Origin: Hexactinellida sp. DTS-2022
Taxonomy: Eukaryota > Porifera > Hexactinellida
Reading direction: 5' to 3'
Assembly: GCA_028753945.1 (NCBI GenBank)
Contig: JAPNXP010000005.1
Location: 1,798,001 to 1,862,000 of the forward strand
Length of the DNA: 64,000 nt
How positions within the stretch are numbered: the stretch's first letter is position 1; every line of letters starts with the position of its first letter. This document shows, in pieces, positions 12,982-23,600 of the stretch. The translations under genes were made by a program, and so were the position numbers. A model generated the notes under the pieces. It was not told where the DNA came from and did not search any database. It saw only the letters and a program-made list of their open reading frames with translations.

Positions 12982-13534
12982 CAGCAGAGATGCAGCGGTC
13001 CGGAAATTTCATGGACCGGACCGGACCGTCATGATTTTTTCTGGACAGTCCGGACCGGTCCAGACCGTATGATCAAAATATTGGATCGGTCTGGACCGGT
13101 CCAGACCGATGAACCGGTCCAGACCGATGAACCGGTCCAGACCGATGAACCGGTCCAGACCGATGAACCGGTCCAGACCGATGAACCGGTCCAGACCGAT
13201 GAACCGGTCCAGACCGATGTACTGGTCCAGACCGTTATATCCCTTATTTGGACCGTTACAGACCGCAAAGTAGGGTGGATAATTATATCCACTTGTGTTT
13301 ATAAGATACTTATTACTTATGTGCTTGTAAACAATGGGTAATAACGGATTTGAGCCCGATCGCTTGTCCAATCTAGGATGAGTCCAGACCGATGAACGGT
13401 CCAGACCGTTATATCGTTAATTTGGACCGGTCCAGACCGCACTTGAAAACAAGCAGACCGGACCGACCTGAGACCGGTCGGTCCGGTCCGGTCCCGGTCT
13501 GGACCGCAGTCCGGTCCAGACCGCTGCATCTCTG
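12982..13534. mobile_element. hAT-type MITE, second GGTCTGGACCG copy, expanded
   Basis: The ends are CAGAGATGCAGCGGTC and its complement, with flanking 8-mers TGCAGCAG and AGCAGCAG (7 of 8 match). It is the reverse-oriented relative of 2130-2571 and is longer because of a tandem array at 13083-13226. The long open frames across it come from the 18-bp periodicity and are not genes. Confidence 0.85.
13083..13226. repeat. 18-bp minisatellite inside the hAT MITE
   Basis: About seven to eight nearly identical copies of GATGAACCGGTCCAGACC stand in tandem. The sister MITE at 2130 has a single such unit in the matching place, so the expansion is local and recent. Confidence 0.9.
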
Positions 13535-15660: not shown

Positions 15661-17293
15661 AAGAATATTCATTTGGCAGTTTGACTTATAGCTGCTTTGT
15701 TTGTCTTGGCAAAGTTTTGGGAAAATGAAAAGCTATCGGGTAGTACTAAGTTGCGTTACAAGTTCCCGTTATGCTGTGGGGATGGGAAGGTAGTTCTACC
15801 CTCTATAGCTTCACACCCTGACCCTGACCTGTTGATGCACCTCCTGACTGCTGCTGACCCGCGTGGAAGAGCGTTTCGAGAACAAATCAGAGCATACAAC
15901 TCCGCTCTGGCGTTTGCTTCTCTTGGAGTGAACTTAGACAAGGGTCTGGATAATGCTAAGGAGGGGGTGTACACATTCCGTATACACGGAGTAGTGCACC
16001 ATTTGATCGGACAGCTGATGCCTCGACAAGGCGAGGCACCCTGCTTTGCGCAGATCTATATTCATGATGGTACTCCTGAGGCTGAGCTGGAGAACCGTCA
16101 GCGGCATTTAGGAGAGACTTCTCTCCCTGAGTTGAAAGGGTTACAATTTATGCTACATGAGTATAATCTATATGTCTCTTTCTTCAGACAGGGAGTAGAT
16201 CTGATGCGAGAGCAGGGGGGCGCTGACGTGAGAATGATTATCCGAGCAGAAGGTGCTCCGGATCCTCGACGTTACAATGCGCCTACAGCCCCTGAAGTAG
16301 CTGTTATCATGCCAGGTGACGGCTATGGAGAGGAGGTGGCCAGCAGAGACATAGTGTTGCACGCGCGCACAGGCGGTCTTCAGCGTATAACAGAGACTCA
16401 CCGCGGTTATGATGCACTGCATTATGTCTTGCTCTTTCCTTTAGGTGAGGATGGCTGGCAGCTGAAAAATCCTCACGCTATAGGTAAGGGTTGTGTCACC
16501 GCTATGGAGTACTATTCATATCGTCTGATGATCAGGAGCAAAGAAAGTCCGCTGCATCTCTGTGGTAGACTCTTTCATCAGTACGCTGTTGATATGTATG
16601 ATAGAACAGAAGAGGCTGAATTACATCAAGATGAACCAGCAGCAGATTCGAGTGGATCTTTACTGTGGGTTGTCTGATGCAGTCGCTGCAGGTGATACAG
16701 ACTCAAGAGAACTGGGACGTAAGATTGTCCTTCCTTCTTCCTACACTGGTAGTCCTCGACAAATGTTTGAGTTGTACCAGGATGCGATGAGTATAGTCAG
16801 GAAATATGGTAAGCCAGACTTATTCATTATATTTACGTGTAATCCGAAATGGGAGGAGTTACGTCTGCTCTCCTATTAAATCAGAAAACGAGCGATCGTC
16901 CTGATTTTATAGTACGAGTCTTCAGATTGAAGTTGCGAGAATTACTTCGGGATATTATGATAAAGCATGTACTGGGCAAACCACTAGCGCATGTATATAC
17001 CATTGAATTCCAGAAGCGTGGTCTGCCTCACGCTCACATTTTTATTATACTCACTGACCGGGATAAGCCTAGAGACCCGCTTGAGTATGATCGAATTATT
17101 TGTGCTGAGCTTCCGGACCTTAATCTGCAACCTAGACTGGACTCTATCGTTAGACGCTGTATGATGCATGGACCATGTGGTGTAGCAAAAAAGAGTGCTC
17201 CTTGCTTAAGGGACGGGAAGTGCTCTAAGAAATACCCAAAGGCATTTTCAGCAATTAGAACAACTGCTGAAGATGGCTACCCCATGTATCGTC
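15661..17293 (+). pseudogene. Helitron Rep (HUH nuclease) domain, first part
   Basis: The Helitron N-domain runs from about 15690 (LAKFWENEKL) through HPDPDLLMHLLTAADPRGR, a YALLFPxGEDGW-like block at about 16420-16460 and YYSYRLMIR at 16507. It then changes frame twice (16562-16860, 16849-17293). FIIFTCNPKWEE is at 16823 and the nuclease motif GLPHAHIFIIL at 17020-17052, with the two metal-binding His (HAH, 17029-17037) intact. Three overlapping frames imply at least two frameshifts. The protein would nick and join single-stranded transposon DNA. The frame then runs into the insertion at 17294, exactly within a conserved YRRRDNGR block. Confidence 0.9.
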
Positions 17294-17439
17294 CACAGTG
17301 ACACGAAGCAGCCCAAACCTGGAACTAGGCATTTACGTTGCAGATAACATCATAAACTATATTATTGACCTATGGGAAATCGACCCCAAGGAATCATTTG
17401 GTGTAATCAGAATTATTCTATCGTTTCAGGTGTGAAATT

Positions 17440-17766
17440 TATGGCGTCATTGTCACATTTCGAGAACCCTGAAAATTCACTTAATCGCACATAATTTGCG
17501 CCGTCTAAGAGATAAAAGTATGAAAATTTAATAGCACATGTACATTAATAATGCGGACACGTTGGTCACACCAGATTGCCAATATGTTTACTCATTGTCG
17601 CATGATGACGTAATCACGAAAATTTCACATTGTTAAAATTGACTATTTAGGCCTATTTACGCTTTATAATCCATGTTAGAAGTATGTAAAGCACACACCA
17701 ACCTCGAGGCGGTTGGCGTGTGGTTGTGTTCTGCCGCGAAGCGACCTATTAAGCGAAGCGGACTAG
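17440..17766 (+). mobile_element. Helitron family-1 3' fragment
   Basis: Matches 722-1234 from GGCGTCATTGTCACATTTCG to the 3' hairpin and the final GCGGACTAG before T at 17767. The 5' half is missing. It lies inside the Transib-like element and so inside the larger Helitron of the same family. Confidence 0.8.
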
Positions 17767-18320
17767 TATAATTTAAAATCCATAATTTAATCCTATTTAT
17801 TATGATTAAATTACTAATATTAAAGAACCACAATATTTTATATTATATTTTGACAAGCGAAATTTGGGCAATTTGTGTCTGGTAATGAAATTGAAATGAT
17901 CGTAAAAATTTTCAGACCACTTCAGACCACAAGGTGATAGTCTGATCAAATGGAGATATTAAAATACTATAAAATAAAACTTGTGTGTAAAGTTGACAGA
18001 GCGCGACAGATTAAGTTCTTAAGGTTCGAAGTTGTGATAATGCAGAAAATGTTTTTCCCAAAAATAGCGATATTACAATGAAAATATACGTTAGATACTG
18101 AGCTATTCTTTTATATCAGCAACATTACTGCAAATGTTACTAATTATACAGCCTTGAAATCTTTCGACAACGTGCTGTCTTTACATCACAAACTAAAATA
18201 TTATTGTAGTATCGGGGCCGGGATAGTGTGGTTATGGAGACACACCCAGCAGGAGGCACGAGTGTTGTGATGGAGACTCCGTGGCAATAAGGAAGCGTGA
18301 CCACCCACAGGCGTGAGTGG
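17767..18320. other. Non-coding interior of the Transib-like element
   Basis: AT-rich up to 18190. From about 18200 the sequence turns G+C-richer with short repeated words (GGAGAC, GGCGTGAGTGGAGTC). This may be the 5' part of a small element that ends with the ribozyme. No ORF. Confidence 0.4.
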
Positions 18321-18325
18321 AGTCA

Positions 18326-18377
18326 TGGGGTCGAGGATCACCCTCCTGATGAGTTCCTATAATGGAACGAAACCCCA
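18326..18377 (+). ncRNA. Hammerhead ribozyme, open at stem III (type III)
   Basis: All core positions are present. Stem III is TGGGGT (18326-18331) with ACCCCA (18372-18377), including the A-U pair next to the core. The cleavage base is C18332. Stem I is GAGG (18333-18336) with CCTC (18342-18345), loop ATCAC. The core CTGATGA is 18346-18352. Stem II is GTTCC (18353-18357) with GGAAC (18364-18368), loop TATAAT. The core GAA is 18369-18371. This is the same layout as the plus-strand ribozymes of plant satellite RNAs and retrozymes. Expected self-cleavage is after C18332. No second copy was seen in the window. Confidence 0.93.
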
Positions 18378-18752
18378 CTAGTAGGTTATGTACGCTACTA
18401 GTCTACAGTTGCCCATCGTCGTAGTCTCCGTTACTACAATTATCAAATAATAAATGTGGTTTTTTCAATCAATAAATTCAAATTGAAATTAGTTGTCGTT
18501 AGAGGACTTTGAAGTCCTATTATTCCAAGAAGCTGTATTGTTTCGAGAAAATTTAACTGCAACCTTAGATATTAGACAATGCTCTATCAGATAGACTACG
18601 TTTGGATATTTTATAAGATGGTAAAATATTTTCTAATTCAAGGGGGTGTGCCACTGTGTCGTCGTAGAGACAATGGCCGTGCTGTTAATGTGGGCGGGGT
18701 TAAGCTTGATAATAGGTGGGTAGTACCATACAATCCCTATCTGTCATTGAGT

Positions 18753-18896
18753 GAGACTGTGAAAACTGCTGACACCAAGCGTGTTGATGAATTCAAACCG
18801 GGCAGTAAGACTGTAAAACTGCTGACACCAAGCGTGTTGATGAATTCAAATCAGGTAGTGAGACTGTGAAAACTGCTGACACCAAGCGTGTTGATG
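18753..18896 (+). repeat. Threefold 48-bp tandem repeat in the Rep gene
   Basis: Three near-identical copies of a unit containing CTGCTGACACCAAGCGTG and TTGATGAATTCAAA. The third copy runs back into conserved Rep sequence, so the unit derives from the 3' flank of the lost segment. It occupies the position of the catalytic Y2 motif. Confidence 0.9.
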
Positions 18897-18948
18897 AAAT
18901 ATCAAACTATTTGGAGGGTCGGTATGTTTCTGCTACAGAGGCGATTTA

Positions 18949-19402
18949 CTAGGGTGCGACCCGTAAAGCCCGTGGTCCGTGGCCCGCTATTCAAAGCCCG
19001 AGCCCGCGGCCCGCTTATTTACTCCGCCAGCCCGCGATTTAGGAAATTTGTTTATTTTATGGCACCTTTGGCTGAATTCGTGAATATATTCTCTAAGAAT
19101 TGAAAATACATATAATTTCCGCGTTATTAATGCGGGAAATCGTATGCGCAAATAGTATCTAGATTCTAGATGAAACTTTTTATATAGGTAACACTTTGAT
19201 AGTTTCGTTAGTTATTTCCTTTTTCTTCTATTAATGGTGGAAGATAGCAGCTTTAGTGCATCTAGACTTTCAGATTTATTAGTTATTGAAAAATTAACAA
19301 TTGATCTTTTTTACTCTTTTCGGCCCGTTTTGGGCCTGAGGCCTGTGGAAAAAGGCCCGCAGCCCGTGATTTACAATAAAGCCCGTACGGGTCGCACCCT
19401 AG
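18949..19402. mobile_element. hAT-type MITE in the Rep gene
   Basis: The ends CTAGGGTGCGACCC and exact complement, with an exact 8-bp duplication GCGATTTA (18941-18948, 19403-19410), define 454 bp. GGCCCG-rich subterminal repeats are typical of animal hAT elements. Removal restores the Rep frame (SATEAIYRIFAYDLHS). A short internal piece, near 19234-19320, faintly resembles a hAT C-terminus. Confidence 0.93.
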
Positions 19403-20615
19403 GCGATTTACCGTATCTTTGCATATGATCTCCATTCTAATCTGCCGCATGTGTTGAGGTTAGCTGTACATCTGGAGAATCAGCAGCCGGTATATTTCTC
19501 TGAGGAGACTGAACTCAAGGATGTATTGAGTAAACAGCGGCACACTACTCTGACTGGATGGTTTGTAGCAAACCAAACTTTCCAAAGCGCTAGGGATATA
19601 ACTTATACAAAATTTTCCTGATAAATTTGTCTGGGATAAATCTGAGCGTAAATGGAAACCAAGGGTAAAGGGACATGGTACCATGATTGGCCGGATGTAT
19701 TTTGCACATCCAGTGGAAGGAGAACGTTTCTATTTAAGAATTCTCCTCAACCATGTCACAGGATGTACTAGCTTACAGGACATCCGAACTCTTGCTGGTG
19801 GTACTGTGTGTAAAAGCTATTAGGAGGCTGCACGGAGTTTTGGATTGTTGGAGGATGATAAGGAGTTAGATGAGTGTTTAACAGATGCAGCTGCTTCTGC
19901 GATGCCCTCGCAGATGCGGCAACTATTTGTCACTATCCTGCTCTTCTATGTACCTACTGATCCTTTAGTCCTTTGGGAGAACCATAAGGCCTCTCTAGCT
20001 GAGGACTTTCTACACCGCGCTAAGCTGTCTGTTCCTGATGTCCAATTGGATGAGCATATACTAAATAGTGTATTGCTGGATATTGAACAACGCTTAGAGA
20101 AGCATGGAAAGTCTCTTTCGGATTTTCCCGGAATGCCAATGTCTAGGAATATTCGAAATCGATATGAAGAACCGAGAGTCATTCAGGATGAACTTGATTT
20201 ATGTGTAAGTGATCAGTTAGAGCGATTCCAAACAGGTGTTAACCTAATGAATGCAGACCAACTGATTGTATTTAACACTATCATGACAGCCGTTGATGAT
20301 TCTCATGTTTATCCTAAGGTGTTCTTCATCGACGGACCTGGCGGTACAGGAAAGACATTCCTTTACAATACTCTGTTAGCTAGGGTCCGATCGAGGGGGA
20401 TGATTGCCCTAGCTATGGCTTCTTCCGGAATAGCGGCGCTCCTCTTAAATGGTGGTAGAACAGTCCATTCCAGGATGAAAATTCCTCTTTCAACTAATGA
20501 GTACTCTGTCTGTAACATTACTAAACAGAGTGCGCTTGCTAGACTCATTCAGCGCTCAACTCTCTTGGTTTGGGATGAGGCTCCAATGGCACATAAGCAT
20601 GTCGCCGAGTGTATG

Positions 20616-21624
20616 CAGGGACGTCGCCACGGGGGGGGGGGGGCATAGAGGGCAATGACCCCCCTGGTAGAAATCCTCGCCCCGGGGCAATGCCTCCCCT
20701 GGTAAAATATATTGAATATTTTATTCCTCTAATTCATTGAGTTGCTATTGAATTCAATTTAATGAGTTCACACTTTCCAATTCATTTGAGTCATATCCTT
20801 GTACGAGGCTCCAATTTTCCCCTGTAGATTGGTCAAGATCCCTAGACACCTCAAATTTTTTCTCGTTCGCTTCGCTCGCTCGTCTAAAATGTAAATCTAC
20901 ACTTATATTGAAACGAATTACACTAACAAAAACATTTTATTATGTGTGTCAAGATATACATACGACACATGTTATTTATTCTTATTAAGTTTGACATAAA
21001 TCAAAATAATCACTTAGGAACCAGATAATATTGAAATATATAGTTTCACAGAGAATCCCTGTACGCTTGAATAGGGTATTAAATTACACAAAACAAAATG
21101 CTACATTTTAGGGTTAGGCATTTTTTTGTATTATTCGACAAACAATCAATAATTTATCCAAACTAGTAATCCATATACAAATTTATTACATTTCTGTACG
21201 CCTGGACAGAACATCCAAAATGGTTGAAATCCCTGTACGGTTGACAGGAATGGACTGTTAGTAATCTATGTAGATGCGCCTTGTAGGATATTCCTAGTTA
21301 TTTTGGCAACTTTTGTTCTAACTACCAATCAACTGTTTTACAAACCCAATACACTTTTTACTTTTGACCTGTTACATGTCAAAATTGACTTTTTACTGTC
21401 ATTATAGGAAGTAGTTAAGCTGTAGTATTTGCTGGAGTTGCAAAGTTATTGTATTGATTTTTGGAGGCTACTTTTCATACTTTGCAGGACATTAAATTAG
21501 AAAGCTTCACCTTTATCGCCTAGTTTTTGGTAACGTCAACTGCTAGATCTAACGCCAATATAATTTTTGCCCCCCTGGAAATTTCTATGCCCCCCCTAGG
21601 TGAAAAATCCTGGCAACGTCCCTG
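20616..21624. mobile_element. hAT-type element in the helicase gene
   Basis: CAGGGACGT(C/T)GCCA ends and the exact 8-bp duplication AGTGTATG (20608-20615, 21625-21632) define 1009 bp. Long G and C runs follow the ends. The interior shares a GAGGCTCCAATTTT to TTCGCTCGCTCG block with the hAT element at 59621, so the two are related. Removal joins the helicase frame (AECMDRTLRD). No transposase is visible. Confidence 0.92.
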
Positions 21625-21632
21625 AGTGTATG

Positions 21633-22787
21633 GATCGTACTTTGAGAGATCTGTGCTCTTGCGAACTACCATTTGGTGGCAAGGTTATCGTGTTTGGAGG
21701 TGATTTTCGTCAAATTCTACCTGTTCTTAAACGGGCAAGCAGGGGTGAAGTTGTGTCAGCGTGTCTGAACAGATCGCCTCTCTGGCGTCATGTTAAGGTA
21801 ATGCAATTGACTATTAATATGCGCCTGCAGAAATTATGCTCCCAGGATTGAAATGAGGTCAGTGAGTTCTCTGACTTTCTCCTGAGGGTAGGAGAAGGTA
21901 CAGAGCCAGAGGATGAGAATCAAATGATTCACATTGACAAGAAATTTGTAGTTCCGGGAGATCATGTTTCTGGCTTGGTTTACTCCGTTTATGGTGACAT
22001 TGTGAACAATTATCTTGATCAGAAGTTTATGTGTCAGCAAATCATTGTCTCCAAAGAATGAGACAGCTGATGTGATCAATGATTACGTCATGGGACTGAT
22101 CCCTGGAGATGCTGATACCTTTTTAGTGCTGATTCAGTTGATGATACTCAGGCTGCTATGTATCCGACTGAGTTCCTTAATACACTTAGTCCTAATGGTA
22201 TGACGCCTCATCGACTAATCCTGAAAAGGTTCGCATCTATTATTATATTGCGCAGTCTTGATCCTACTCAGGGTTTGTGTAATGGGACTCGCTTAACTGT
22301 GAGATCTGTTTGCAAAAGGCTGATAGATGCTGAGATTGCCACAGGTGGTCATGTGGGAAATCGAGTATTAATTCCCCGCATACCGCTCCTTATTCCAACG
22401 GATTCCGGCTTTCCGTTTGTTTTGAAGCGAAGGCAGTTTCCAGTGCGTCCTGCTTTCTACATCACTATAAACAAGGGTCAGGGTCAGAGTTTAGAGACTG
22501 TCGGCATTTTCTTACCCTCTCCTGAAGCCATATTCAGCCATGGTCAACTTTATGTGGCTCTGAGTCGAGTTCAGAATCCTAGAGGTTTGAAGATCATGGT
22601 ATGTGGAGGGAAGGAATGTGTCGGCGGTGGGGTGTTGGTTAAGAATGTCGTATATCGGGAGGTTTTGCTAACTCGAGTAGAGAAACCTCTGACATCCTGT
22701 CCGGATCTGATTAGTTCGCATTCGCAGGATGCATCGATCTTATCCTCTCACGGCGTCCCTGTCTTCTCGCCTTTAAGAGAAGCTTGA
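21633..22787 (+). pseudogene. Helitron PIF1-type helicase, motifs III to VI
   Basis: GGKVIVFGGDFRQILPVLKR (21673-21733) is helicase motif III, with the Gln that contacts ATP. A stop at 21851 and shifts near 22040 and 22150 follow. 22158-22787 then carries FPVRPAFYITINKGQGQSLE (motif V, about 22432-22491) and LYVALSRVQNPRGLK (motif VI with its arginine, about 22549-22594). The order and spacing are those of the Helitron C-terminal helicase, which unwinds the strand during rolling-circle transposition. It overlaps the OTU ORF start by four bases (ATGA at 22784). Confidence 0.9.
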
Positions 22788-23600
22788 CGGGTGAGTATAA
22801 TGAGAGAGAGAGTAAAGTGTCTAAGATCTTTGAGTTCATTCATAATGATGTTATTGCGTTAGAGGAGTTACCAGAGTGTATTCTTTCAAGCGATGACATT
22901 TCCCATGGTTCAACTGATAATCTCTTATGTGAGGTTATTAGGTTTCCTAGAGTTATGACTGATGATTCGGGCATCACTTCGGTAAACAAATTTACTCTCG
23001 CGATGCGACTTAATCTAGCCCAATCAATTGGGTTAGGTTCCGAGAAGATATTACCGAATCGGGAAGATCTTTCAATACGTGGAACATCGTTGCGTTATTA
23101 TTCATCACTCGCCACAAAACTGTGATAAATTTGGAATTGGATTCCATTTGTGTCCAGTTTATGGTGATGGTAACTGTCTATACCGAGCTCTATCTCATAT
23201 CATTTTTGGTAACGAGAGGTCGCATCATATTCTTAAACAATGTTTGATCTGTAAGTTTGAGGCTAATCCACAGCATTATTTTAATGTGATGGGCAGATCA
23301 GGCATATTCAGTGAACAGGACCTCCACTGTCATATAGATCGAATTAGATCTCGAAGTGAGTGGGGTACTAACACTGAGTTGAATATGATTGGGACTTTAG
23401 CTCGGATAGACGTGGTGTCAATTGAAGCAACTGATGTTGACCCTAACAATTGGAGTATCCGTCATGTTTATATTCATGAACATTTGGAGCTTCCGTTGTG
23501 ATCCAATCTATGAAGGTCAAAAATTAGGGGTAAATTACTATAGAATTGACCATCAAATTGGTATGGAGCACTTTGATCCATTTTACCAGTAACTCGATAG
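22784..23600 (+). pseudogene. OTU-like cysteine protease domain of the Helitron
   Basis: 22784-23125 is an open, unrecognised linker. 23079-23501 encodes the OTU core: YGDGNCLYRALSHIIFG holds the Asp and catalytic Cys, and after one frameshift near 23500 MEHFDPFY supplies the C-terminal His. OTU domains are deubiquitinase-type cysteine proteases found at the C-terminus of some animal Helitron proteins; their role in transposition is not settled. The frame change between 23125 and 23079 means the domain is not read through from the helicase as the sequence stands, unless spliced. Confidence 0.85.

Follow-up and report, generated by a model that had tools for sequence, protein, structure and literature searches.

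Plant LTR retrozymes, as presented in PMC4918200, carry a type III hammerhead ribozyme in each long terminal repeat (LTR), together with a primer site, a polypurine tract and a short non-coding centre. They also occur as solo LTRs, and have LTR ends and a primer site in common with Ty3/Gypsy retrotransposons. The retrozymes described from metazoans are likewise small non-coding hammerhead repeats (PMC7229834) but are non-LTR elements with type I hammerheads (PMC11722881; PMC7229834), and in the published accounts they lack LTRs, primer site and polypurine tract (PMC7761336; PMC7229834). Animal miniature LTR elements of the TRIM/SMART kind, such as Helenus and Ajax, have a primer site, a polypurine tract and 4- or 5-bp target duplications (Kojima, 2024; PMC10886601); we found no ribozyme described for them, and the word 'hammerhead' occurs once in that paper, in its reference list. 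Type III hammerheads are themselves known from animals. Those of termites, flies and HDV-like RNAs (PMC7936874) and the discontinuous hammerhead of mammalian Clec2 genes (PMC6155905) differ from the present ones in having a long or very long stem I, and the termite copies are described as isolated, with no recognised element. Insect elements with type III hammerheads are mentioned in PMC7761336 as work in preparation, and could prove to be of the same kind as those reported here. Our search of the open-access literature, with preprints and subscription papers outside it, found no description of an animal LTR retrozyme, which is not proof that such elements are unreported.

The hammerhead and the repeat that carries it

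The window is a stretch of 64,000 nucleotides (C14:1798001-1862000) within a searched genome of 112.4 Mb in 18 contigs. It contains a type III hammerhead, listed with its surroundings in Table 1. The core read in the preliminary description (CTGATGA at 18346-18352, GAA at 18369-18371, A18372, T18331 and C18332) is exact at every position, and the stem lengths given there, 4, 5 and 6 bp for stems I, II and III, are reproduced by the predicted fold (-19.4 kcal/mol; as good in three of 200 shuffles, z = -2.45). Stem I has four pairs and not five because the pair at alignment columns 13-17, formed in 47 of 51 copies, is broken in the window copy (A against C).

The Rfam model RF00008 (Hammerhead_3), which defines a ribozyme family and not an element, is matched over its whole length, positions 1-54 of 54, when 701 bases are searched. 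The score falls 0.2 bits short of the curated gathering score of 48.5 bits, so that by the covariance-model check proposed in the preliminary description this single copy lies just below the cut-off. For this reason RF00008 had no match when the complete window was scanned with the gathering threshold applied.

Table 1. Features of the window around the hammerhead
Feature	Position	Strand	Basis
Type III hammerhead ribozyme	18325..18378	+	RF00008 48.3 bits, E 1.7e-9; covariation across 51 distinct copies
GTC cleavage triplet, with the cut predicted after C18332	18330..18332	+	sequence
Stem III 5' side, pairing with 18372-18377	18326..18331	+	fold
Stem-loop I, 4 bp (most other copies: 5 bp)	18333..18345	+	fold, alignment
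Stem-loop II, 5 bp, 6-nt loop	18353..18368	+	fold, alignment
Repeat read as solo LTR, family A, 234 bp, from TGTAGTATCGG to CCGTTACTACA	18205..18438	+	genome copies with common ends
Left target-site duplication ATTAT	18200..18204	.	sequence
Right target-site duplication ATTAT	18439..18443	.	sequence
Helitron hosting the LTR, span by ORFs	15685..23501	+	Pfam; first ORF by position only
Helitron_like_N	ORF 16843-17301	+	Pfam
PIF1	ORF 19824-20648	+	Pfam
Pif1_2B	ORF 22116-22787	+	Pfam
OTU	ORF 23037-23501	+	Pfam

Bases 18200-18480 match at least 44 places in the genome, and the full-length matches end alike, at the positions corresponding to 18205 and 18438, with termini TG...CA. The closest other copy is 97.4% identical to that of the window. 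Among 19 copies labelled as flanked by host sequence on both sides, nine have a perfect 5-bp duplication, three agree at four of the five bases and seven at fewer; permuted right flanks gave 0.57 perfect duplications on average and at most four in 10,000 permutations. The 19 were drawn from 27 LTR copies with both ends found. This number should read 28, as L029 and L033 had their 3' LTRs merged into one; the missing copy is a 3' LTR flanked by a polypurine tract and lies outside the 19. On inspection, four of the seven low-match copies (L013 minus, L024 plus, L029 plus and L030 minus) proved to be bordered on one side by sequence that resembles a primer site or the stretch between LTRs, and the poor match of L012, L028 and L035 is without explanation. 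We read the window copy as a solo LTR because the unit has common ends, is flanked by ATTAT and belongs with host-flanked copies that show 5-bp duplications. The small unrecognised retroelement at about 18200-18500 that the preliminary description had guessed at is thereby given its limits and its kind. Judged from sequence, the parent element is a small non-coding LTR retrotransposon.

The repeat sits in a Helitron, of which the ORF at 15685-16677, with no Pfam match, is counted as part by position only. Tandem arrays lie inside or beside this Helitron at 18750-18907 (53-bp unit, 2.9 copies) and 13095-13234 (18-bp unit, 7.8 copies).

Copies, complete elements and a candidate helper

The preliminary description had proposed a genome search for further copies, and these were found. 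When two mismatches or fewer are allowed, the pattern of the hammerhead core has 293 matches (141 + 152) against none for a backward control. From 12319 first-look candidates 68 were scored with RF00008, a sample that does not include the window copy; every one of the 68 matched the model, and 64 of them exceed the cut-off (best 64.3 bits). The 25-base pattern GTCGAGGGTYACCCTCCTGATGAGT has no exact match in viral_contigs and none in genome_contigs, from which near relatives of the window genome were possibly left out.

We aligned 51 of the 53 distinct hammerhead 54-mers, leaving out L022 (indel) and L023 (truncated). Paired cells amount to 90.5%, compared with 84.8% in shuffles, and 68 cells are altered on both sides, compared with 30.5. 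The covariation score is 0.213; shuffles give 0.106, with none of 500 as high, and no slid structure exceeds 0.092. The signal is weaker by two coarser measures: seven pairs show change on both sides against 5.3 in shuffles (25 of 500 as high), and the further pair types number 22, where shuffles give 19.0 (14 of 500 as high). The shuffles overstate independence because the copies are related, a relatedness that the slid controls preserve. Columns 31-42 and 33-40 of stem II alternate between C-G and U-A, and columns 4-51 of stem III between U-A and G-C. Of the pairs drawn, the outermost (columns 1-54) is formed in just seven of the 51 copies and is outside the ribozyme proper. A chance hammerhead was rejected because the genome holds so many core matches, with an empty control, and because nearly all of the scored candidates pass the RF00008 cut-off; the covariation of the stems weighs against it too.

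With up to five substitutions allowed, the examined loci contain 80 hammerhead cores, one of them truncated. Clustering assigned 37 to families A and B, 34 to family C and three to a small cluster, leaving six single. Nine identical 28-base cores, eight of them on the minus strand, are spaced 35-510 kb apart within C1:13.00-13.91 Mb.

The plan of a complete family B element is seen in L044, which reads ACATG, LTR with hammerhead, T, TGGCGACGAAGGTGGGAT, ..., AAGGTGAGAGGAG, LTR with hammerhead, ACATG. It is 594 bp in total, with 149 bp between LTRs that are 98.7% identical. The same plan is found in L043 (duplication GTTAC, LTRs 97.3% identical) and L045 (ACATG, 85.7%). The hammerhead in each LTR runs in the same sense as the primer site and polypurine tract. 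These three elements fit the TRIM plan, having two LTRs, a primer site, a polypurine tract, a length below 1 kb and no room for enzyme genes.

The 18 nt of the family B primer site are exactly complementary to the 3' end of tRNA-Ser(GCT), namely the final 15 bases of its gene, which is in the same genome, with CCA added; the tRNA end was read by eye from the 7-bp acceptor stem, and the end given by ARAGORN is two bases further. The corresponding 18 nt of family A, that of the window, are exactly complementary to the 3' end plus CCA of tRNA-Gly(GCC). Directly behind this swapped primer site both families have CTGTAGGATACC in common; their LTR termini differ. In family A the tract TTAAGGAAGAAGGAG precedes the 3' LTR. 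The family A locus L046/L089 has 111 bp between LTRs, the first LTR and its hammerhead being truncated, such that L046 has one hammerhead over the RF00008 cut-off and one truncated. No full family A element with a duplication was found in the examined loci, L046/L089 being truncated, L045 mixed and the others inverted pairs.

In L045 (C11:12236400-12239600, 1302-1910) the first LTR is of family A, the type of the window, and the second of family B, the type of L044, within a single duplication; it appears from its sequence to be a recombinant or converted element. Its five duplicated bases are identical to those of L044, yet the flanks are different. Head-to-head inverted pairs of hammerhead LTRs around a shared stretch were observed at L013/L049 (C18:1604600-1607700), L024/L048 (C16), L004 (C13) and L039 (C1), with the inverted LTRs of L049 99.6% identical. 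Such pairs may come from self-integration or template switching.

Family C has LTRs of the form TGTGACGAG...CTCATAACA, the best copies measuring 325 bp and the hammerhead-bearing rows of our table 255-328 bp. A perfect 4-bp target duplication is present in ten of the 26 rows, two of which (L088 and L077 minus, without hammerhead) are spurious. A near-complete C-like element, L096, has 385 bp between its hammerheads, repeats that are 97.4% identical and ATAG at both outer sides. No tRNA primer site was recognised by eye in family C. A hairpin of about 14-16 bp, also identified by eye, spans the border of LTR and internal region in L039 (about 1042-1091) and L004 (about 1331-1382), at the place expected for a tRNA primer site. 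Where these two copies differ, a change in one arm of the hairpin is matched in the other arm. The hairpin could possibly serve in self-priming or be the sign of another primer.

Two hammerheads that each exceed the RF00008 cut-off are present in L043, L044, L045 and L096. The preliminary description had looked to paired copies 0.5-1 kb apart; pairs over the cut-off do exist, in these four loci and in L039, but their hammerhead-to-hammerhead distance is shorter, at 371-486 bp. The one-LTR RNA of L044, 371 nt long, has a predicted folding energy of -144.7 kcal/mol and beats all of 100 shuffles (mean -118.7, sd 5.9; z = -4.42).

A candidate source of enzymes was found through the tRNA-Ser primer site, which has ten genome matches (L079-L088), four inside hammerhead elements (L080-L083) and six outside. 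Among the pieces scanned with Pfam, L084 shows RVT_1 and RNase H, L085 shows a zinc knuckle and a retroviral-type protease, and the scanned piece of L079 has no family. The best PDB matches to the reverse transcriptase piece of L084 are 4ol8 (reverse transcriptase/RNase H, 3.9e-33) and 7q5b (Ty3-G Gag-Pol, 2.6e-32). Its LTR is 169 bp long and recurs after 3,244 bp in a second, 100% identical copy whose limits are exactly TGTAGTAAC and ACGTTATTACA; the outer flanks, TTGTC and GTGTC, agree at four of five bases. L084 and L044 have 30 exact bases in common over LTR end and primer site, a result for family B and its tRNA-Ser site. L084 also begins with TGTAGTA, and in families A and B and in this Gypsy element the polypurine tract ends in GGAG immediately 5' of TGTAGTA. 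L084 is short for an autonomous element and is therefore taken to stand for the helper family, a putative helper itself; it may be defective. No hammerhead over the RF00008 cut-off was found in L079, L084, L085 or L097, and a looser limit of E 0.1 likewise gave none in L079, L084, L085, L086 or L088. An autonomous element bearing the hammerhead was not found among the loci examined, nor was a Gypsy element with the tRNA-Gly site in the seven of ten matches to that site that were examined. The 351 bp upstream of the L085 primer site are mostly another repeat.

With respect to the host, the MH1 (SMAD) domain, which is not known from outside the animals, has three matches over cut-off in the genome. 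Two of them, at C18:1162313-1162615 and C5:2556717-2557019, belong to uninterrupted reading frames 479 and 593 amino acids long, from which these two genes seem to be poor in introns. Searches for COX1 and for Wnt gave no match, the Wnt result being no proof of absence. A cadherin ORF shares a 3-kb locus with the tRNA-Ser gene. The MH1 and cadherin domains identify the host as an animal.

The resemblance to plant retrozymes noted in the preliminary description is supported by the LTRs, primer site, polypurine tract and Ty3/Gypsy termini. Compared with the plant elements as described in PMC4918200, the host is an animal; the primers are tRNA-Ser and tRNA-Gly rather than tRNA-Met; the target duplication is 5 bp in families A and B, against 4 bp in plants, family C having a perfect 4-bp one in ten of the 26 rows; the LTRs, mostly 222-238 bp in A and B and about 325 bp in C, compare with 300-400 bp; and the hammerheads are closer together than the 697-776 bp of Jatropha retrozymes. 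Since the plan agrees except for primer tRNA, size and duplication length in A and B, we use the name animal LTR retrozyme.

Proposed movement and competing explanations

We consider it very probable that the window holds a solo LTR from a population of animal LTR retrozymes, with a type III hammerhead in each LTR, and that these elements are moved by Ty3/Gypsy enzymes, with a small circular RNA as the probable intermediate; both the cleavage and the circle are our inference. A transcript spanning both LTRs would be cut in both hammerheads, and the freed RNA of one LTR plus internal region (371-486 nt in copies with two good hammerheads) would be ligated to a circle. The circle would be primed by tRNA-Ser or tRNA-Gly and copied by a Gypsy reverse transcriptase, possibly for more than one round, and the copy would be inserted by a Gypsy integrase with a short target duplication. 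Recombination between LTRs would then leave solo LTRs such as that of the window. With its single LTR, the window copy would at most cut a transcript passing through it and would release no circle. The same route of two cuts, a circle, tRNA-primed copying and integration has been proposed for plant retrozymes (PMC4918200; PMC7761336); the elements described here differ from the plant LTR retrozymes (PMC4918200) in being known from DNA alone.

An ordinary TRIM that carries the hammerhead as a passenger and is mobilised in the usual way through linear RNA, with no circle formed, is unlikely. The elements are TRIM-like in size and in their LTRs, primer site and polypurine tract, and the circles are our proposal. 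However, compensatory changes maintain the hammerhead, with a covariation score well above those of shuffled and slid controls, across families that differ in LTRs, duplication lengths and primers. Moreover, as set out for plant retrozymes (PMC4918200), cutting both LTRs yields an RNA without the repeated R region that normal strand transfer needs.

The preliminary description had also considered a Transib-like element, for which we found no support. The domains on both sides of the repeat are those of the Helitron (Helitron_like_N, PIF1 and OTU), and the ends TGTAGTA...TACTACA are LTR ends. A MITE, for example of such an element, with a hammerhead by chance, would account for these short inverted ends and for the 5-bp duplications. 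Transib-like elements likewise make 5-bp duplications. This reading is nevertheless very improbable and was rejected on the LTR pairs, primer site and Gypsy termini seen in L044, L043 and L084: pairs of direct repeats enclose a tRNA-complementary primer site and a polypurine tract, and the same kind of ends is found on a Gypsy element with a reverse transcriptase. The Pfam scan, which took in ten of the 20 listed window ORFs, found no transposase domain in them other than that of the Helitron.

It is equally hard to credit that the Helitron has co-opted the inserted hammerhead to cut its plus-strand transcript between the Rep and helicase parts. The hammerhead is on the same strand, between Helitron_like_N and PIF1, but similar solo LTRs lie at many other places in the genome, and the window hammerhead is short of one stem I pair. 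A metazoan non-LTR retrozyme or Penelope-like element, suggested by short hammerhead repeats, tandem or inverted, in an animal genome, can be dismissed almost entirely, because by published criteria the type III rather than type I layout and the LTR anatomy (LTR ends, short target duplications, primer site and polypurine tract) do not belong to it.

Returning to the animal LTR retrozymes, we note that a nearly constant 54-nt ribozyme is found in at least three types of LTR element. These have different LTR sequences, target duplications of either 4 or 5 bp, and a primer that is tRNA-Ser in one, tRNA-Gly in another and unrecognised in the third. A tentative and somewhat doubtful extension is that what replicates is the hammerhead circle, which would switch from one helper retrotransposon to another by acquiring different LTR ends and a different primer site. 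Such a circle would be the parallel, in an animal, to the connection with viroids that has been proposed for the retrozymes of plants.

A population of several families linked to Ty3/Gypsy in an animal would imply that the association of hammerheads with LTR elements is older, or has been gained repeatedly. The animal genome is also small, and matching ribozyme, primer and helper within it would make the circular-RNA model testable outside plants.
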